59,864 bases of DNA from an uncultured bacterium. Its GTDB lineage: Bacteria; Spirochaetota; Leptospiria; Leptospirales; Leptonemataceae. Positions 42,070-52,015 of this stretch are shown one piece after another; the first letter of the stretch is position 1, and each line of letters begins with the position of its first letter. The notes under the pieces were generated by a model. The model made no database searches and was not told the DNA's origin. It worked only from the letters and a program-made list of their open reading frames with translations. Location of the stretch: assembly GCA_937928085.1 (NCBI GenBank), contig CALFVU010000001.1, forward strand, positions 1-59,864, read 5' to 3'. The position numbers and the translations under genes are program-made.

Positions 42070-43056
42070 TTATACGGTTTCTTCTTTAGTTTGAAAATCT
42101 AGCAAAGTTTCGATTTGCCAAATTCGTATTTCTTCATCTTTTGTTAAATCATATATTTTACTTTCTCTAAATCTTTTTAAATATAAAAAAATATTTCTTT
42201 TTAAATTTTTATCTTTTAGTAAGTCCTTTTCCAAATATTCTTCTAACTTTGAAAAATTCTTATTGTGCAAATTTAACAAGAATTCATAATATAACTTTAA
42301 ATATTCAATCTTTTCTTTGTTTAATATTAATTCTTTACTTTTGTTTTTATTTTCCAACATAATATTTAAAAAAGAAATAATAATATTAAATTCTTCTATA
42401 GTAAGTCGAAACGTAAATGGTAATTGATACATTTTATCAAAATCAAGTTTACGTAAATATAAACGAGAAGCATATACGGGATTTTTAGTAATATAATCCT
42501 CCCCTACTTTCGAAGCAATATCGGTAATTCTATAATTTTCCCAATTTTCTTGTTTTTCTAAATCTGGCGTATAAGAACCTGCTAACACATATTTAGCTTT
42601 TGGAAATAAAATTCGCAAATTTAAAATATCTAATCTTGTTAAAGAAGAAGAATAAATGATCATATCAAATTGATTTTTAAATTGATTTTGCAATAATTGA
42701 ATTTCTGATTTCAAGTTCGAAATGAAATGAACATAAACAGGATATACATCCAAAATAAATTTTACACTGATTACTAATCGATATCGTTTTTCATCATTTT
42801 TTAAACGATAAAAAAATTCAATACTTCTTTTTTTAATGGGCATTAAATGAACGGTATTAAATTCATTGATTTGAGGTACAATTTCATTTCCTACAAAAAG
42901 AAGATAAGGAAAACTTTTTCCCGTTCGATAGATCATGTGTTTTATTTCTTCAAGGCTTTTTTCGTGAACATTTTCTTGCAAATAAACAAATCTTTTTTCC
43001 TTTATATTTATATAAAAAACAATATGATTATATGTAAGCTGTATGATTTGTTCCAT
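42070..43056 (-). CDS. Protein of unknown function coupled to a degenerate NtrC-like regulator
   Basis: A 328-residue soluble protein. The first 150 residues are mixed alpha/beta (NHIVFYINIKEKRFVYLQEN, YRLVISVKFILDVYPVYVHF), and the last 150 are helical and charged. No motif points to a function. Its start abuts or overlaps the stop of the NtrC-like gene at 43056, so the two are translated together, and I infer that it is a partner or target of that regulator. Confidence 0.6.
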   Translation of the reverse strand: MEQIIQLTYNHIVFYINIKEKRFVYLQENVHEKSLEEIKHMIYRTGKSFPYLLFVGNEIVPQINEFNTVHLMPIKKRSIEFFYRLKNDEKRYRLVISVKFILDVYPVYVHFISNLKSEIQLLQNQFKNQFDMIIYSSSLTRLDILNLRILFPKAKYVLAGSYTPDLEKQENWENYRITDIASKVGEDYITKNPVYASRLYLRKLDFDKMYQLPFTFRLTIEEFNIIISFLNIMLENKNKSKELILNKEKIEYLKLYYEFLLNLHNKNFSKLEEYLEKDLLKDKNLKRNIFLYLKRFRESKIYDLTKDEEIRIWQIETLLDFQTKEETV

Positions 43057-44306
43057 TACATTTTAAACCCATACTTTGTAATTTTATATTGTAATGATCC
43101 TCGAGAAATTCCTAAAAGTTTGGACATATGAACTTGATTCCCACCTACCATACGATACGCCTTTAGAATCAATTTTTTTTCTAAATCTTCTGTGCAAAGC
43201 CTTAAATTCAAATTTCTTGTATCATGAATTTCCCATACATGAAAAATTAAATCTTCTTCTTTTATGATTCCATCTTTAGAAATAAAAAATGCGGTTTCTA
43301 AAGTTTTATAAAATTCATATAAATTAAAGGGCCAATCATATTCTAATATTTTTTTTATTGCTTGTTTCTCAATTTGAATCTCTCTTCGATAATATTGACT
43401 TATAATTTGTAAATACCTATATACTTCTTCTTCTAAAAATTCTTTTACATATCGTAAAGAAGGTAAAAGAATCTGATTTTTTTTTAAAAGTTCCCATAAA
43501 TTTTCATCAAAATCACCGATTTCTACTAATTTTTCTATCTGAAAATGAGATACAAATACTAAAAAAGGTATATGGGATGGATGTTTCACAAAATAATCAA
43601 AGAAAATCTTTTGTACTTCTTTATCTAGTTCTACTACATCTTGAATTATGATCGCATCGAAATTTTTGTTAATCAAAGGAATCACTTTTTGAGTTTTTAA
43701 TCGTTCTCCAGCATCAAATCCAAATAATTCTTGAAGTTGTACTTTCTTAGATAAAAATGCCGTTTCAAATTTTTGAATTTTTTTATTAGAAAAGCCTTTA
43801 ATCGTAAAAAAAAACTCTAAAAACATTTCCACACCACTGCCAATTTCAGAAACGATCAGAAGGGGTGAGTTTTTATAAATCGTATTCCAGATTTTTTCTT
43901 CCAACCATTTTGGAACCTGTTTTAAAGATTCATTAAATGAAGAAATTTCTTGAAAAAAAATTAAGAAAAGAATTTCTAAAGAAGGCAATTTCTCAGTCCA
44001 CTTAAAAAAGATTCCATACTGAAAATGTTTTATATCATCAAGGATGATAAAAAACGTCTCCTCATGAAAAACAAATTCAATTGCTCCTTGTTCAAACACC
44101 ATTTCCCATAACGAAAAATGGTTTTGTAATTCTTCGATAAAACTTGTGTTTTCAAAAATTCCTCTTTTTCGAATTATTATAAATTCATTAGAGAGAATTT
44201 TAAACAAAGCATATTCGCACTCTAATATATCCAACCAGGATTTTGAAGAAAAATTTTGATACTGATTTTTTAGAAATTCATAAAATTTAAGATCCATTGT
44301 AATCAT
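43056..44306 (-). CDS. Degenerate NtrC-like regulator with Fis-type helix-turn-helix
   Basis: A 416-residue protein laid out like a sigma54 activator but with a dead ATPase. The P-loop region reads VSEIGSGVEMF (152-162), lacking the lysine; ELFGFDAGERLKT (193-205) stands where ELFG...GAFTGA should be and has no GAFTGA; the Walker B equivalent is IIIQDVVEL (219-227) without Asp-Glu. LPSLRYVKEF, YDWPFNLYEF and the C-terminal Fis-like helix-turn-helix GNQVHMSKLLGISRGSLQYK (389-408) are retained. It should bind DNA but not activate sigma54 polymerase. A palindrome lies 39-50 bp upstream of its start, between it and parA. Confidence 0.7.
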   Translation of the reverse strand: MITMDLKFYEFLKNQYQNFSSKSWLDILECEYALFKILSNEFIIIRKRGIFENTSFIEELQNHFSLWEMVFEQGAIEFVFHEETFFIILDDIKHFQYGIFFKWTEKLPSLEILFLIFFQEISSFNESLKQVPKWLEEKIWNTIYKNSPLLIVSEIGSGVEMFLEFFFTIKGFSNKKIQKFETAFLSKKVQLQELFGFDAGERLKTQKVIPLINKNFDAIIIQDVVELDKEVQKIFFDYFVKHPSHIPFLVFVSHFQIEKLVEIGDFDENLWELLKKNQILLPSLRYVKEFLEEEVYRYLQIISQYYRREIQIEKQAIKKILEYDWPFNLYEFYKTLETAFFISKDGIIKEEDLIFHVWEIHDTRNLNLRLCTEDLEKKLILKAYRMVGGNQVHMSKLLGISRGSLQYKITKYGFKM

Positions 44307-44642: not shown

Positions 44643-45413
44643 GTGAATTCTAATTCTTACAACAAAAAGATTATTGCCATCACAAATCAAAAGGGTGGAG
44701 AAGGAAAAACTACCACAGCCATTAATCTCTCTTGCATTTTTGCAAAAAAAAAAATAAAAACTTTATTGATTGACATTGATCCACAAGCGAATTCTACTGG
44801 TATTTTTGTAAATCCCGAAACTCTTGAGAAAAGTTTATATAATGTATTTGCTCAAAACATGCCAATTCAAGAAATTCTTCTACCTACATATTTAGAGTAT
44901 TTAGATTTAGCACCTTCTAAAATCACTTTAGCAGAAATTGAATCGTATGCATTGAATGTCGATGCTCCTTATATTCTTAGAGATCAAATACAAAATTTAA
45001 ACTCATATCAAATGATTATTATAGATTGCCCACCTTCTTTGTCTATTTTTACAATTAACGCTTTAGTAGCAGCAACTCATGTAATTATTCCAGCACAAGC
45101 AGAAAAGTTTTCTATTGATGGGATGACTGGATTAAAAAATACAATTAACTCAATCAAAAGAAGGATTAATCCAGACTTAGAGATTTTAGGAGCTTTAATA
45201 ACACAAATTCGTCCTAGAACTGTCTTAACAAGAACAATTTTACCTATTATCTCTCAGTTTTTTCCTGTTTTTAAAACTTCTATTTCTCAAGGTGTGGTCA
45301 TAGGAGAAAGTCATTTAGCAAAAAAAAGTATTTTAGACTATGCTCCGGAAAGTAACCAAGCCAAAGAATATTTAAGCTTTGCAGAGGAAGTATTAAATGA
45401 GCTCAAAATCTAA
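44643..45413 (+). CDS. parA: ParA partition ATPase
   Basis: A 256-residue ParA/Soj ATPase. The deviant Walker A is [15 protein letters not shown] with signature K17 and K22; the Glu in KGGEGKT replaces the common Val. Walker A' [12 protein letters not shown] and [16 protein letters not shown] follow. There is no N-terminal helix-turn-helix, as in short (type Ib/chromosomal) ParA proteins. It starts at GTG; the overlapping ATG at 44641 is out of frame and stops at once. ParA moves ParB-bound DNA during segregation. The parB start lies 17 bp inside its end. Confidence 0.95.
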
Positions 45414-46221
45414 GAAATTAGGTACATTAGCAGATATTTTTCAAGCTGAGAAATTAGATGGAACGATTCTTAAAATCCCAATTCATAAAATTAAACCTTC
45501 GGAAAACCAACCCAGACAAAATCGGACTATAGGTATTGAAGAATTATCAAAAAGTATAGCGATTGACGGACTTCTTTCTCCTATTGTAGTTACAAAAGAA
45601 AATGATTATTATAGGATCATCGCTGGTGAACGAAGATATCATGCTGTAGCATCTCTGGGATGGAAAGAAATTGAATGCAAAATTATATCAAGAGAACAGA
45701 AAGATTATTTTCGAATTTCTCTTATAGAAAATCTTCAAAGAGAAGATCTAACTGCAGAAGAAGAAGCAAAAGCTTTAGAATATTTAAAAAAACAAGAACA
45801 TCTTTCCGATATGGAATTAGCCAATCTTTTAGGTAAATCAAGAAATTATATTTCCGAAATTTTAAGCATAAATGAACTTCCCAATGAAGTGATCCAAAAG
45901 TGTAACGAACTGGGGTTTTCGAATAAAAATTTTTTAATTCAAGTTGCGCAGGCTTTTAAAAAAGGAAATTTAGATTCATTTTTAGAAGCTTTACAACGGG
46001 GTGATATAAAAACTGTAAAAGAAGCAAAAGCGTTTAATAAAATTCATGTAAAAGCTCATTTTCGAAAAAAAACACTACCGCATAAAGCTCAGAACGAAAT
46101 CACATCTCATTATAAAATTCAGATCGAAAAAAATAAAATCATGATTACTTTAGAAAATCCAAAATTCACTAAAAAGGTGTATGATTGGTTAAAAGAAAAT
46201 TTAAATCAAGCATTTTTTTAA
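45397..46221 (+). CDS. parB: ParB partition protein
   Basis: A 274-residue ParB/Spo0J protein with NQPRQ near residue 38, the CTP-binding box [10 protein letters not shown] (GERR 77-80), [10 protein letters not shown] (111-120) and a helix-turn-helix [20 protein letters not shown]. The C-terminal third is charged, with a likely dimerisation segment. ParB binds parS and loads partition complexes. The gene overlaps parA by 17 bp. No gidB or other oriC-linked gene is nearby, so this may be a plasmid-type rather than the chromosomal locus. Confidence 0.95.
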
Positions 46222-46365
46222 ACATAATCCATTTTTTTATAAAAAGTTTAAAAAACTAAATTGATTTTATAAAATGATTTTATATTATACTTAACATGTA
46301 CTTATATTATTAAGAGAAATTTTTAATTTTTTTTTACTAAATAGATGTAAAGTACTTAAAAAGAC

Positions 46366-46393
46366 TTGACTAAAAAGGCTTAAATGACATAAT
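46366..46393 (+). promoter_or_regulatory. Candidate rep promoter
   Basis: TTGACT (46366-46371), a 16-base spacer and CATAAT (46388-46393) resemble a sigma70 promoter. Transcription would start near 46400 and place the pseudoknot-like structure at 46415-46541 at the very 5' end of the rep mRNA. Confidence 0.5.
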
Positions 46394-46414
46394 TTATTAT
46401 AAAAAAATAAGGTG

Positions 46415-46541
46415 ATTGCAGGAAAAAAATACCCCTCTCTTTAATAAAAGATTTTGAAAGAGAGGGGTTGGGGCTTCATTGGGAATGAATAATGTCAATT
46501 TAAACCTGCAATAAGAAAAGTCAACCAAAAAAGAAGCCCCA
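46415..46541 (+). ncRNA. Candidate pseudoknot in the rep mRNA leader
   Basis: Three helices can form: A, ATTGCAGG (46415-46422) with CCTGCAAT (46505-46512); B, a 12-bp hairpin (46431-46442 with 46457-46468); C, TGGGGCTTC (46469-46477) with GAAGCCCCA (46533-46541). C begins inside A and closes outside it, so A and C cross, the topology of a pseudoknot. B sits inside A. The region ends 37 bases before the rep ATG. Structured leaders of this kind control Rep translation in several plasmid groups; homology is not claimed. Confidence 0.55.
46431..46468. repeat. 12-bp inverted repeat sharing the iteron core
   Basis: Arms ACCCCTCTCTTT and its perfect complement, with a 14-base spacer. With the two bases before it, the left arm contains ATACCCCTC, the same 9-mer found twice in the iteron-like array inside rep. 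In DNA form it could be an operator for Rep autorepression; in RNA form it is helix B of the leader structure. Confidence 0.6.
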
Positions 46542-46578
46542 CTTTGAATTTTTTTAAAAAAAATTAAAGGATACGACT

Positions 46579-47454
46579 ATGTCGGGCAAAGATTTAACCT
46601 ATTTTAAGTTTGTTTGTGATTTAATAGATGCTGGGATTTGGGCAAAAATGTCATCTTCTGCAAAAACATTATATCCCGTGCTTTTAAGATTTTCAGACAG
46701 AAATTTTTCTCCCGTATATCCTGGTTCAAAAACCTTATTAGAATTGACGGGTTTTAAGCAGAAATCAAGTTTGCGAAAAGCAAGAAAAGAGCTCGTAGAT
46801 CTGGGTTTGATTAGTATCACTACTGGTACAGGTAGAAAAAACACAATCTATCATTTTCGGTTTGATTGGATACCCCTCAGAGGAACATACAAACCCCCCC
46901 CTGAGGATATATCTAATACCCCTCTAGAGAACGAATCTACACCCCCCACACAAACTTTTCTTTCCTCTACACGGAGTCATTCCTGGCAACCCCCATATAA
47001 CCAGATCCAAATATCTATTAACAACAACCAGGGTACAGAAAGTACAAGAAAAAAAGAAACTGAACTTCATAAAAAATCACATACAAATTTCAAAAAGGAC
47101 GAATTTATGGAGCTAAGAAAACAGTATGGTTCTAAAAATGTGGATCTTGCAATTTCTGAAGCACGATTAGCTGATCTTCCTATCAATTTTTCCAATATCG
47201 AAAAAATTTTACGTTCGAATGGTTTTTCTGTAAATGACTCCAAGAAGATTTTTGAAACACTCAAACAAAAAGTTTCCGAAAACACATATAAAATCATCCG
47301 CCAATCTTTTCTGAGAGAAGAGAATGGTTTTCTTGTGTTTTCTGATTCATTGCCTTTGTATATGAAAAATATTTTGTACAAGCTTTGCGATAATATTTTG
47401 TTTGAACCAATACAAACTTCAACAAATTTTGCATCAAGAGATCATTGGAGGTAG
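46579..47454 (+). CDS. rep: Replication-initiator-like protein with N-terminal winged helix
   Basis: A 291-residue protein. Residues about 20-95 look like the HTH_36-type winged helix of plasmid and phage replication proteins (SSSAKTLYPVLLRFSDRN, YPGSKTLLELTGFKQKSSLR, KELVDLGLISITTG). A Pro/Ser/Thr/Asn-rich linker (about 97-160) follows, then a helical C-terminal domain. The linker is encoded by a C-rich 23-bp-period repeat array. Together with parA-parB just upstream, this suggests an initiator with its origin inside its gene. The ATG follows AAAGGAT. The next gene starts 2 bp after the stop. Confidence 0.65.
   Translation: MSGKDLTYFKFVCDLIDAGIWAKMSSSAKTLYPVLLRFSDRNFSPVYPGSKTLLELTGFKQKSSLRKARKELVDLGLISITTGTGRKNTIYHFRFDWIPLRGTYKPPPEDISNTPLENESTPPTQTFLSSTRSHSWQPPYNQIQISINNNQGTESTRKKETELHKKSHTNFKKDEFMELRKQYGSKNVDLAISEARLADLPINFSNIEKILRSNGFSVNDSKKIFETLKQKVSENTYKIIRQSFLREENGFLVFSDSLPLYMKNILYKLCDNILFEPIQTSTNFASRDHWR
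46870..46955. repeat. Iteron-like array, 23-bp period, inside rep
   Basis: Units start at 46870, 46893, 46916 and 46939. Units 1 and 3 share ATACCCCTCnnnnGAAC exactly; units 2 (ACCCCCCCC...) and 4 (ACACCCCCC...AAAC) are weaker but in register. Because 23 is not a multiple of three, each unit is read in a different frame, so the periodicity is a DNA property rather than a protein repeat. C-runs in an otherwise AT-rich genome make it stand out. This is the pattern of initiator-binding iterons. Confidence 0.6.
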
Positions 47455-47455
47455 T

Positions 47456-49981
47456 ATGAGTATCCGAATTTCACACCCTTATGTTTATACATTTCAAAAA
47501 ATTGAGGTTTCTAATGGAGAATATACATTAAGTGAAGAAGGCTATATAGAATCGTTTCTTTCTGAAAAAAAGAACTATCTATCAACTGAATTTATCGTTG
47601 TATCTGGCAAAGAAATTCTTTATTTTAATCAGATTAAACTCTCTAAACATAAGGATTATCCTAATTTGTTTCCCACTAGTTTTCGATTTGAAATTTCTAT
47701 GGAAGGAAAAGTTTGGGAACCTATCATAAGAGAAACTTCGTTTGCTTTTCCAAAAATGGGTGAATATACATGGAATTTTTCTTTAATTCAAGCAAAATAT
47801 ATAAAATTTATATGCTTTAATACTAATCAAAAGGAGTTTTATCGAGTTGCTATAGGAAAGTTACAGATTTGCATTTCTGGTATCGTACAAATTAAGGCTT
47901 CCAGTCAATTAGATAGACTTTGGGTGAAAGAAAATCTGATTGATCAAAGAAACGATTATGGTTGGTCAAGCTCACTAAAAAAAGAAGATACTCCAGAAAT
48001 GGTTGAGTTTGATTTAGGTTCTATCAATCGTGTTAGTGAAATACGGATGTTAACTAAAAATCATAAAGAAACTTTTTTTCCTCTTTCTTTTCGAATTCAA
48101 TATTCAGATGATTCAATTACTTGGCATCATTTAATCGAAGAAAATCGATTTTTTACAGAACCTGCTACTTGGTATAAATGGAGATTTTACCCCATCAATA
48201 TTCGGTATTTAAAAATTTTAATTACAGAAAATGCAATGACTCGAGATGGAAAATATATCTCTCAGATCATAGAAGTTGAATTGTATGCGGATTCTGATCC
48301 TATGGAAAAAAGAAATATACCATATCATTTAGGAAGTATTCCTTATGCTTCGGTTCTTAGAAGTGGAATTGTACGTCTTGCTTTAGATGGAGAGGATAAG
48401 GAAGGAGTTGTAGTTCAAGGTAATGATCGAAGACTAAAAGAAGCAACTACAAGCTCGAAAGGTATTGTAGAGTTAGCTTCTGATGGAGAGGATAGGGAAG
48501 GAGTTGTAGTTCAAGGTAACGACCGAAGATTAAAATATGCTTCTGAAGATTTTCCCGGTATTGTTTGTTTTGCCAGAAATACTGAAGAAAAACCCCTATA
48601 TGCTGTTCAAAGTAATGATGATCGGTTAAAGCCAGCGACGGTTACGAGGAAGGGGATTGTGGAGTTAGCGGAGGATGGAGAGGATAAAGAGGGTGTAGTA
48701 GTTCAAGGTAATGATCGAAGATTAAAACAAGCAACTACCCATTCTTATGGAATTGTAAAATTAGCTAAGTTAGGGGAGTCTACTCCAAATTGTGTGGTTC
48801 AAGCGAATGATCCAAGATTAAGAGAAGCTACTTCTGAATTTAAAGGAATTGTACGATTATCGAGACATGGAGAAGAATCTTCAGATGCGGTGGTTGTTGC
48901 AGATGATCCGAGATTAAAGCCAGCGACGGTTGCGAGGAAGGGGATTGTGGAGTTAGCGGAGGATGGAGAGGATAAAGAGGGTGTAGTAGTTCAAGGTAAT
49001 GATCGAAGATTAAAACAAGCAACTACCCATTCTTATGGAATTGTACGACTCTGTCCTAAAGGGGAATCAGTTATGGATACTGTTGTGCAGGGGGATGATC
49101 CAAGACTTTGTGATGCTCGAAATCCACTACCTCATGAACACGATTATGCTCCGAAAAATCATGATCTAAACAGTCATACTGGAGTTTTAAAATTAGAACG
49201 AGAAATGGGCCAACATTACGAGAATTGTTTACCACCAGATTTTGAATATAGCCCGATTTATGGTTCCAATACTGGTAATGGAAGCGGGATAGCTGGAAAA
49301 GGCAAAGTAAGAGGAGTACTAGGATATGGAGATCAAGAAGGAGTAGTAGGATTTTCGGAAAAAGGAACAGGAATCGTAGCAAAATCTATGAATGGAATTG
49401 GAGGAAGGTTCTATTCCGAAAGAAATTTTGATTTAGTTTTAGGTTTATCCTCTTCTAACTTAGAAGAAATGTTGAATTCAAAACAAGAACTACCTATAAA
49501 AAACTCTTTATTGGTTTGGGGAAAAAGCTTTTTTTTAAATTCAATTTATTTTGGAAACAAAGATAGTGGTTTGCTTCCTGTTATTGCAATGTATTTGCCT
49601 GTAAAAGAAAAAGAAATGTTTTTACCCGGAGATTTAGTCATCGCATCTACAAAAGATGGAAGTGTTCAAAAATGCCATCATAGAAAAAGTAATAAAGTCA
49701 TTGGGGTGGTTGTGGAAAATGCTTCAGTAATTTTAAATGGCCATATCAATGAAGTCAAACAAACCTATTCAGAAACAATACTAGTAGCTGTTTTTGGAAT
49801 TGTTCCAGTGCGAGCATATTCAGAAAAACCTATTGAACCTGGAGATTTATTGATGTCTTCTTTTGAATCCGGTTGTGTGGAGAAATACTCTGGAAATTAT
49901 GAAGTCGGAACTGTAGTAGGGAAATCTTTGGGAACTGTAAAAAAAGGAATAGAACGAATACCTGTATTACTTACCTGGTAG
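47456..49981 (+). CDS. Phage tail-fibre-like repeat protein
   Basis: I start it at ATG 47456, which has GGAGG four bases upstream; a TTG at 47402 would overlap rep. The 841-residue protein has two F5/8-type-C (discoidin)-like domains (for example DLGSINRVSEIRMLTK, FRIQYSDDSITWHHL), then eight 32-residue repeats of the type KGIVELAEDGEDKEGVVVQG with NDRRLKxAT (48362-49129), ending in DPRLCDARNPLPHEHD as in phage tail fibres. A glycine-rich GVVGFSEKGTGIVAKS part and a C-terminal module with PGDLVIAST and PGDLLMSS follow. There is no signal peptide. Its place directly behind rep suggests a phage-plasmid origin; its function is unproven. Confidence 0.7.
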   Translation: MSIRISHPYVYTFQKIEVSNGEYTLSEEGYIESFLSEKKNYLSTEFIVVSGKEILYFNQIKLSKHKDYPNLFPTSFRFEISMEGKVWEPIIRETSFAFPKMGEYTWNFSLIQAKYIKFICFNTNQKEFYRVAIGKLQICISGIVQIKASSQLDRLWVKENLIDQRNDYGWSSSLKKEDTPEMVEFDLGSINRVSEIRMLTKNHKETFFPLSFRIQYSDDSITWHHLIEENRFFTEPATWYKWRFYPINIRYLKILITENAMTRDGKYISQIIEVELYADSDPMEKRNIPYHLGSIPYASVLRSGIVRLALDGEDKEGVVVQGNDRRLKEATTSSKGIVELASDGEDREGVVVQGNDRRLKYASEDFPGIVCFARNTEEKPLYAVQSNDDRLKPATVTRKGIVELAEDGEDKEGVVVQGNDRRLKQATTHSYGIVKLAKLGESTPNCVVQANDPRLREATSEFKGIVRLSRHGEESSDAVVVADDPRLKPATVARKGIVELAEDGEDKEGVVVQGNDRRLKQATTHSYGIVRLCPKGESVMDTVVQGDDPRLCDARNPLPHEHDYAPKNHDLNSHTGVLKLEREMGQHYENCLPPDFEYSPIYGSNTGNGSGIAGKGKVRGVLGYGDQEGVVGFSEKGTGIVAKSMNGIGGRFYSERNFDLVLGLSSSNLEEMLNSKQELPIKNSLLVWGKSFFLNSIYFGNKDSGLLPVIAMYLPVKEKEMFLPGDLVIASTKDGSVQKCHHRKSNKVIGVVVENASVILNGHINEVKQTYSETILVAVFGIVPVRAYSEKPIEPGDLLMSSFESGCVEKYSGNYEVGTVVGKSLGTVKKGIERIPVLLTW
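48626..48757 (+). repeat. Direct repeat copy 1 within the tail-fibre-like gene
   Basis: 132 bp that recur at 48914-49045 with a single base difference that I could see (TTACGAGG versus TTGCGAGG). The offset of 288 bp equals three protein repeats. Confidence 0.9.
48914..49045 (+). repeat. Direct repeat copy 2 within the tail-fibre-like gene
   Basis: Second copy of the 132-bp repeat. The near-identity at DNA level, while other repeat units differ at many codons, indicates recent duplication or gene conversion. Confidence 0.9.
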
Positions 49982-51136: not shown

Positions 51137-52015
51137 ATGGAGAAAATTATTGATATTTTGCAAGAAAAAAAACTTACGTTTTCTTTTGAGTTTTTCCCTC
51201 CCAAAACAGATGAAGCTGAAAAGCAGTTACAAAATACGATTTTACATTTGAAAGACTTAAAACCAGATTTTGTTTCCATTACCTATGGAGCGGGTGGTTC
51301 AACTCAAAAAAAAACAGAAGAATGGGTAATTAAAATACAAAAAGAGTTTAATATTTTAACGATGGCTCATTTAACCTGTATAAATACCACTAAGGAAAAA
51401 ATTCTACATATTTTAGATCATTATCGACAAAATTCCATAAAAAATATTATGGCTTTACGGGGGGATCAACCGAATGATCAAACAATACAATTTACTGATT
51501 TTCATTATGCGAGTGATTTAATTCTTTTTATTAGAAAAAATTTTTTCGATAATTTTTCTATTGGTGCTGCTTGTTATCCCGAAAAGCATCCTGAGGCAAA
51601 AAGTTTGGAAGAAGATATAGAACATTTAAAACAAAAAGTAAATGCTGGTACGGACTTTCTAATTACTCAACTTTTTTTTAAAAATGAAAATTTTTTATAT
51701 TTTCGAGATGAAATTCGAAAAAAAGGGATTACGATACCCTTAATAGCGGGGATTATGCCAATTACTTCTTATAAACAAATTGAAAAATTTACAAAAATGA
51801 CTCAATGCCAGATTCCTGATTCATTATTATGGAAATTAGACAAATATAAAGATTCAGAAGAAGATTTAAAAAAAATTAGTATTGAATTTTCTATACAACA
51901 ATGTAAAGAACTTTTAGAAAATGGTGTTGACGGAATTCATTTTTATACATTAAATCAAAGTATTGCTACTATAGAAATCTTAAAGGCGATTCGGCAAGTC
52001 CATTCAAGTTTATAA
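51137..52015 (+). CDS. metF: Methylenetetrahydrofolate reductase
   Basis: A 292-residue FAD-dependent TIM-barrel enzyme (E. coli MetF is 296). Landmarks are FSFEFFPPKTDEAEKQL with the catalytic Glu, FVSITYGAGGS, HLTCINTT, MALRGDQPND, SIGAACYPEKHPEA and FLITQLFFKNENF. It reduces 5,10-methylene- to 5-methyl-tetrahydrofolate for methionine synthesis. AAGG precedes the ATG. The phosphatase gene follows after 8 bp. No SAM riboswitch was seen in the 120-bp gap upstream, which contains an AAAT microsatellite. Confidence 0.96.
   Translation: MEKIIDILQEKKLTFSFEFFPPKTDEAEKQLQNTILHLKDLKPDFVSITYGAGGSTQKKTEEWVIKIQKEFNILTMAHLTCINTTKEKILHILDHYRQNSIKNIMALRGDQPNDQTIQFTDFHYASDLILFIRKNFFDNFSIGAACYPEKHPEAKSLEEDIEHLKQKVNAGTDFLITQLFFKNENFLYFRDEIRKKGITIPLIAGIMPITSYKQIEKFTKMTQCQIPDSLLWKLDKYKDSEEDLKKISIEFSIQQCKELLENGVDGIHFYTLNQSIATIEILKAIRQVHSSL

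Follow-up and report, generated by a model that had tools for sequence, protein, structure and literature searches.

Palindromic sites spaced at about 23 bp inside rep are a likely replication origin of chromosome II-type replicons in the Leptospira lineage

Origins of replication that lie inside initiator genes are already known. In phage lambda, gene O encodes a winged-helix protein and carries iterons within the gene, with an AT-rich segment beside the iterons. In pSK41-type RepA_N plasmids, according to the passages of PMC5703833 drawn on here, four Rep boxes lie in the centre of rep and encode the linker of the protein, the Rep box relies on an A+T-rich tract, and an antisense RNA of ~83 nt is found about 100 nt upstream; the N-terminal domain of the pPR9 hybrid of staphylococci is of the HTH_36 type (pfam13730). 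The repABC systems of the Alphaproteobacteria, which are used by some secondary chromosomes, combine the gene order parA-parB-rep with an antisense RNA between parB and rep and an oriV inside the initiator gene (PMC3155836, in the parts used). For Leptospira, the passages of PMC2229662 consulted place the origins of L. biflexa chromosome II (CII) and p74, from GC skew, at a par operon that is followed by a putative rep. Fragments of L. interrogans plasmids that contain rep alone let shuttle vectors replicate (PMC4338851, passages), which fits an origin in or beside rep, the Rep proteins of those plasmids sharing only the C-terminal domain with the one described below. Large replicons, including those of one Leptospira strain, were found at approximately the copy number of the chromosome, in passages of PMC13342612 that do not name CII.

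The stretch analysed here (the window) is one entire contig of 59,864 b from a Leptonema-like MAG of 21 contigs and 2.30 Mb, in which the best DnaA match lies on a different contig. The nearest homologue with a named source was from 'Leptonema sp.' (68% identity). The window carries the parA-parB-rep-discoidin-metF module of Leptospira CII (Table 1), and its gene order, with an HTH gene divergent from parA followed by parB, rep, the discoidin gene and metF, is the same on L. interrogans CII, where the genes are homologous and rep has four motif sites at 23 bp. The published description of CII stops at a par operon, a putative rep and a GC-skew origin in the passages of PMC2229662 seen, whereas here the sites themselves are placed in rep. 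The order parB-rep-discoidin was found at 15 of 15 related loci from named genomes, with parA also present in 13, the two others being short contigs; the order parA-parB-rep-discoidin was found as well in the window, on L. interrogans CII and on the T. parva plasmid. Upstream of parA and divergent from it, positions 42070-44306 of the window (minus strand) encode two proteins, one of the Fis-type HTH kind that has a sigma-54-activator-like domain and another with no Pfam match, and most of the longer loci have homologues of this gene pair at the corresponding position. The discoidin gene contains eight 32-residue tandem repeats (GIV.LA..GED.EGVVVQGNDRRLK...) at 48365-49140. On the T. parva plasmid (L082, L085/L086; G041:C2; 25,287 bp) the CII-type module is accompanied by methionine-salvage genes and glpK; the same kind of module is carried by a 25-kb plasmid in Turneriella and by a 350-kb chromosome in L. 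interrogans.

Table 1. Features of the parA-parB-rep module and its surroundings in the window (positions are those of the window)
Feature	Position	Strand	Basis
parA (partition ATPase)	44643..45413	+	PF13614 E 1.5e-50
parB (ParB/Noc-like partition protein)	45397..46221	+	PF02195 E 1.5e-18, PF17762; TIGR00180 above cut-off
Predicted rep mRNA promoter (TTGACT-16-CATAAT, TG before second hexamer)	46366..46393	+	consensus scan 10/12; GACATAAT recurs in relatives
Predicted antisense RNA unit	46424..46524	-	promoter 46524-46497, terminator hairpin 46468-46431 then T-run
Possible long-range rep-leader pairing, arms 46469-46480/46530-46541 (TGGGGCTTC / GAAGCCCCA)	46469..46541	+	inverted repeat I21
rep (291 aa initiator)	46579..47454	+	HTH_36 PF13730 E 3.4e-8; PHROG 270/186/678
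Winged-helix domain of Rep, residues 24-78	46648..46812	+	HTH_36 match; pLDDT
Iteron 1	46873..46884	+	core CCCTCAGAG at 46874-46882; at most 1 mismatch to palindrome
Iteron 2	46894..46907	+	core CCCCTGAGG at 46898-46906; at most 1 mismatch to palindrome
Iteron 3, degenerate (CCCCTCTAGAG)	46919..46929	+	sequence reading; C-run
Iteron 4, half-site (C6 run)	46942..46952	+	sequence reading; C-run
Outlying C5 run, possible further half-site, ~two periods past iteron 4	46990..46994	+	
AT-rich segment directly past array, candidate unwinding element	46996..47030	+	
Helical middle domain of Rep, residues 177-214, possibly DnaD-like	47107..47220	+	
Last Rep domain, residues 220-276, modelled alpha-alpha-beta-beta-alpha-beta, possibly like DnaA domain I	47236..47406	+	
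Discoidin-domain protein gene, syntenic neighbour	47402..49981	+	PF00754, synteny; start codon uncertain, listed ORF overlaps rep
metF, syntenic neighbour as on L. interrogans CII	51137..52015	+	

When the window Rep was compared with annotated plasmid records, it matched second replicons of L. interrogans of 350 kb and 394 kb (tblastn E 6e-22) and the 25-kb plasmid of T. parva (E 9e-25), these matches spanning the N-terminal 34-41% of the query. Among the genomes searched, a rep match was obtained in 26 of 30 from the order and in 36 of 48 from the class. In the 12 class genomes where rep was not found, a second profile gave one weak partial match; in seven of the 12, completeness was 90% or more and contamination 5% or less, so the replicon may be truly absent there, may have been lost in binning, or rep may be too divergent.

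The Rep model had block-mean pLDDT values of 84-96 for residues 11-90, the exception being one block at 82 near 91-100, and values below 50 over residues 102-137, which indicates that the linker is probably disordered. The N-terminal domain of the model was closest to RepA_N initiator structures. Structural matches of the C-terminal part were weak, and a profile comparison with DnaA domain I gave 8%. Similar to the O-like and DnaD-like phage initiators, the window Rep matched phrog_270 (E 1.4e-12), phrog_186 (E 2e-9) and phrog_678 (E 1.3e-7), the annotations of the matched families being 'replication initiation protein', 'DnaD-like helicase loader' and 'replication initiation O-like'. The earlier note had likened the array to the lambda origin inside gene O, and these matches make the comparison apt; the two genes also have in common the winged helix, the iterons within the gene and the adjoining AT-rich segment. 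The iteron sequence of lambda is different, and the last domain of Rep is suggested to resemble DnaA domain I. In contrast to the phage initiators, the window Rep was not found among 50,697 phage records; the L. interrogans CII Rep matched two LE1-like Leptospira phages through its C-terminal part only.

Three plasmid initiator families were considered for Rep. PF06970 (RepA_N) gave no match at E values up to 5 in 30 Rep members, RepC (PF03428) was matched by one of the 30 at E 0.18, and a Rep_3 identity was rejected, the window Rep matching HTH_36 only and PF01051 not being among the 14 families matched by the 30 members. As Rep fails the RepA_N and RepC profile tests, its likeness to those systems would be one of function and not of demonstrated family membership. 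The likeness to pSK41 lies in the central position of the sites in the linker codons of rep and in the predicted antisense RNA upstream, and that to pPR9 in the HTH_36 domain. In contrast, the pSK41 Rep box with its A+T-rich tract (PMC5703833, in the passages used) differs from the GC-rich palindromes of window-type genes, and unlike the RepA_N plasmids, window-type rep, with no PF06970 match, is linked to parAB on a chromosome-like replicon. The module resembles repABC in gene order, in the predicted antisense RNA and in having its candidate origin inside the initiator gene, and differs from it in that RepC is of another family and the repABC origin has no iterons, according to the parts of PMC3155836 used. 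No published account of the array, its motif, its class-wide register or the predicted antisense RNA was found in the titles and abstract openings that searches of open-licence literature on Leptospira brought up or in passages of PMC2229662, PMC4338851, PMC4140679, PMC6090056 and PMC13342612.

In the window, C-runs of at least four letters started at 46873, 46894, 46919 and 46942, with an outlier at 46990, all within rep and, as the earlier note had it, between the winged helix and the C-terminal domain. Four units are present as claimed, and their centres, taken by eye at 46878, 46902, 46924 and 46947, are spaced by 24, 22 and 23 bp and not by exactly 23 bp. The units had also been said to cross all three frames; in the window the C-runs fall in two frames (0,0,1,0) and the two scored sites share one, and among the relatives at least two frames are used in 24 of 33 rep genes and all three in only three, L. 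interrogans CII included. Elsewhere in the window there were at most two same-letter runs per 100 bp, and the largest cluster of such runs in 100 first-order Markov windows was three within 80 bp. The linker had 27 bases in runs of at least four C or G, whereas the same protein written with local codon usage would have 6.5 (p = 0.0005, the lowest value that 2000 simulations can give), and the p value for its site count was 0.008. Just two units, iterons 1 and 2, fit the class-wide palindrome with at most one mismatch, the other two being half-sites, and matches to the palindrome over the whole window numbered 10 compared to 10.3 by chance. A generic repeat finder and Tandem Repeats Finder did not report the array in the window; its units have only a short common core.

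The linkers that join the winged-helix and C-terminal domains in 33 rep genes were scored for CCCYNRGGG, one mismatch being allowed. The genes have local GC contents of 25-58% and include those of L. interrogans CII and the Turneriella plasmid. A total of 91 sites was found, with at least one in each of the 33 genes and at least two in 30. When the linkers were recoded for the same proteins with local codon usage, the mean number of sites was 25.0 (maximum 38), and when the synonymous codons of each linker were shuffled the mean was 55.6 (maximum 69), in 2000 rounds each. The claim of selection on the DNA is therefore borne out. The enrichment was individually significant (p < 0.05) in 21 genes and not in the remaining 12, the closest relatives of the window, L043 and L044, being among the latter (0.26 and 0.0505, respectively); the 33 genes are related and hence are not 33 independent trials. 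Site density was 19.15 per kb in the linker, compared to 0.79 and 0.40 in the rest of rep and 1.21 and 0.35 in the flanks. The same letters in three other arrangements scored 40, 40 and 29 against 91, with exact matches of 3, 3 and 2 against 25.

Neighbouring sites were 21-25 bp apart in 46 of 58 pairs, with a mode of 23 bp (18 cases), compared to a mean of 14.1 and a maximum of 22 in 200 rounds of the codon shuffle. Of these 46 spacings, 29 were not multiples of three (null mean 10.0, maximum 18), and the sites consequently shift frame and are encoded by differing residues (P-x-G, PPWG, SPRG etc.). In the linker DNA of the relatives, C runs are followed by G runs. The L. interrogans CII rep had four sites at linker centres 42, 65, 88 and 111, exactly 23 bp apart and in frames 2,1,0,2, and its linker holds two identical 23-nt repeats. 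These findings show that the sites are a DNA-level feature of all 33 rep genes, kept in a similar register while protein and frame change. An alignment of rep homologues had been proposed as a check, and in it the array at about 23 bp was kept while the linker protein varied; conserved protein lacking the DNA periodicity, the outcome that was to count against the idea, was not seen, each of the 33 genes having at least one scored site. The CCCYNRGGG motif was not carried by three Leptospira plasmid and phage rep genes with a related C-terminal domain. An LE1-like phage rep (L124, 1968-2048) has in mid-gene two pairs of 12-13-nt repeats of a different motif, each 23 nt apart.

Upstream of rep, 26 of 33 genes carried a minus-strand GC-rich hairpin followed by a T-run (positions about -90 to -157), compared to 0.05 minus-strand terminators in shuffles of all 33 regions together, and no plus-strand terminator was found upstream of rep in any of the 33. 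The scan with loops of 3-8 misses the hairpin of the window, which was found once longer loops were allowed. A promoter-like pair preceded the terminator on the minus strand in 21 of the 26 genes; that of the window (TTGACT-16-TAAATT) is weak, at 9/12 consensus. As a control, 20 of 33 genes had minus-strand pairs with at least 10/12 consensus no more than 100 bp from rep, compared to a mean of 0.8 and a maximum of 3 in Markov sequences. The predicted RNA had no Rfam match near its gathering score. The second arm of the possible leader pairing sits just before the start of rep; the pairing may act in translation. Arranged in this way, the predicted elements of the rep leader have the layout by which an antisense RNA controls the initiator in pSK41 and repABC. 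In many loci the element GACATAAT is found in promoter-like position before parA and, in two copies, before rep (e.g. L034 at 4165, 5831, 5928); it may be a shared -10 element or operator.

The GC-skew check suggested by the earlier note was made on five stretches, and in each of them cumulative skew turned at the module, either within rep or 0.4-1.3 kb upstream of it. On the 184-kb G011:C3 the minimum (120,244) was inside rep (119,545-120,372), as it was on the 400-kb piece of the longer contig G024:C2 (1,186,802). It lay in parB on the 250-kb G001:C4 and on the T. parva plasmid, where its closeness could be chance (uniform p 0.065), and in parA in the window (45,288, at -826), where a point inside rep (47,311) was almost as low at -823; the lowest point was thus in parA or parB, and not in rep, in three of the five. 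At approximately 1,186,138-1,187,037 of G024:C2 (L064, L091, L125-L144), the CII module lies on a 1.41-Mb contig with dnaA ~698 kb away, apparently as the result of a natural chromosome fusion or a misassembly.

Directly past the array, the 30 bp after the linker had a mean GC 0.205 below the gene mean in the 33 genes. This dip is due in part to conserved Asn/Ile-rich residues; at third codon positions after the linker, GC was also below that of the remainder of rep in 14 of 15 GC-rich genes, but in only 23 of all 33. The AT-rich segment may serve as the unwinding element. With an E. coli-type consensus, which would miss a diverged box, no DnaA box with at most one mismatch was found at 44785-49711, and the total in the window was at chance level.

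That the C-runs arose by chance would agree with the silence of both repeat finders and with the chance-level number of motif matches over the whole window. This idea is scarcely credible, as it is contradicted by the cluster simulation, in which neither the rest of the window nor any of 100 simulated windows had a comparable cluster, and by the site counts in the 33 genes. The periodicity could also be a by-product of a proline/glycine-rich linker selected as protein. P-x-G and PP motifs do recur by eye every 7-8 residues; however, the fall from 91 sites to at most 38 on recoding and at most 69 on codon shuffling, and the 29 of 46 spacings that shift frame, contradict it, and in the model pLDDT stays under 50 along linker residues 102-137. 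We therefore regard a protein-level cause as highly improbable. Control of Rep by titration or autoregulation, with strands opening elsewhere, would find a parallel in iteron plasmids, where iterons often serve as both origin and control sites, and 19 of 33 genes do have further motif matches, 24 in all, within 600 bp upstream of rep. However, 11 of these 24 overlap the called minus-strand terminator hairpin, and the skew turning points and the AT-rich segment favour an origin, which leaves a purely regulatory role very unlikely.

The array could instead be the centromere (parS) of the module, bound by ParB and not by Rep, with the true origin nearby. The sites are palindromic and directly downstream of parAB, and three of the five skew minima are within parA or parB. 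Moreover, canonical parS with at most two mismatches was not found on the window, G011:C3, G001:C4, the T. parva plasmid, the 400-kb G024:C2 piece or 17 shorter loci, so the array could be a ParB site; a scan of the window at three mismatches gave one match, which is at chance level. Against this stand the location of the array in the rep linker in all 33 genes, followed by the AT-rich segment, the match of Rep to initiator families, and the Rep boxes of pSK41, likewise central in rep (PMC5703833, in the passages used). A centromere is thus unlikely. We consider it quite likely that the array in CII-type rep is the origin of that replicon, and that its palindromes (CCCYNRGGG), spaced at about 23 bp, are the predicted targets of the Rep winged helix. 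The earlier note had named the array a candidate replication origin, a proposal supported by the class-wide sites, the skew at the module and the initiator-family matches of Rep; the CII replicon of the Leptospira lineage, the palindromic nature of the sites and the predicted upstream antisense RNA are features beyond it.

The best reading of the locus is an intragenic iteron origin that would be old in the class and would work like those of lambda O, pSK41 and repABC. In such an origin, the N-terminal winged helix of Rep would bind the palindromic sites, and, 23 bp being a little over two helical turns, Rep would assemble on one face of the DNA. Bound Rep would open the adjacent AT-rich segment, and its DnaD-like and possibly DnaA-domain-I-like C-terminal part would recruit the replicative helicase, in which case the origin is proposed to need no DnaA boxes. 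The antisense RNA from the rep leader would limit the synthesis of Rep and, as proposed, thereby set copy number. Because the array is written into codons for a linker that is probably disordered, origin and initiator would be inherited as one piece. A wider reading, to which we give somewhat less than an even chance, is that a single ancient and self-contained origin-gene drives CII in the Leptospira lineage, in which gene the iterons lie in the rep linker codons, a fusion of O-like, DnaD-like and DnaA-domain-I-like parts bypasses DnaA, and an antisense RNA holds chromosome copy number; this unit would run replicons as small as a 25-kb plasmid and as large as a 350-kb chromosome and, in G024, would still be shaping GC skew after apparently landing on a dnaA-bearing chromosome.

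For the second chromosome of the Leptospira lineage, the origin reading names precise sites that Rep may bind, a candidate segment for unwinding and an RNA that may set copy number. With its near-23-bp register, kept while the protein changes and local GC content ranges over 25-58%, the array is a clean example of one DNA stretch carrying two codes, and the module would be a further example of an origin in an initiator gene beside pSK41, repABC and lambda O. It bears on how the second chromosome starts replication and keeps step with the main chromosome.
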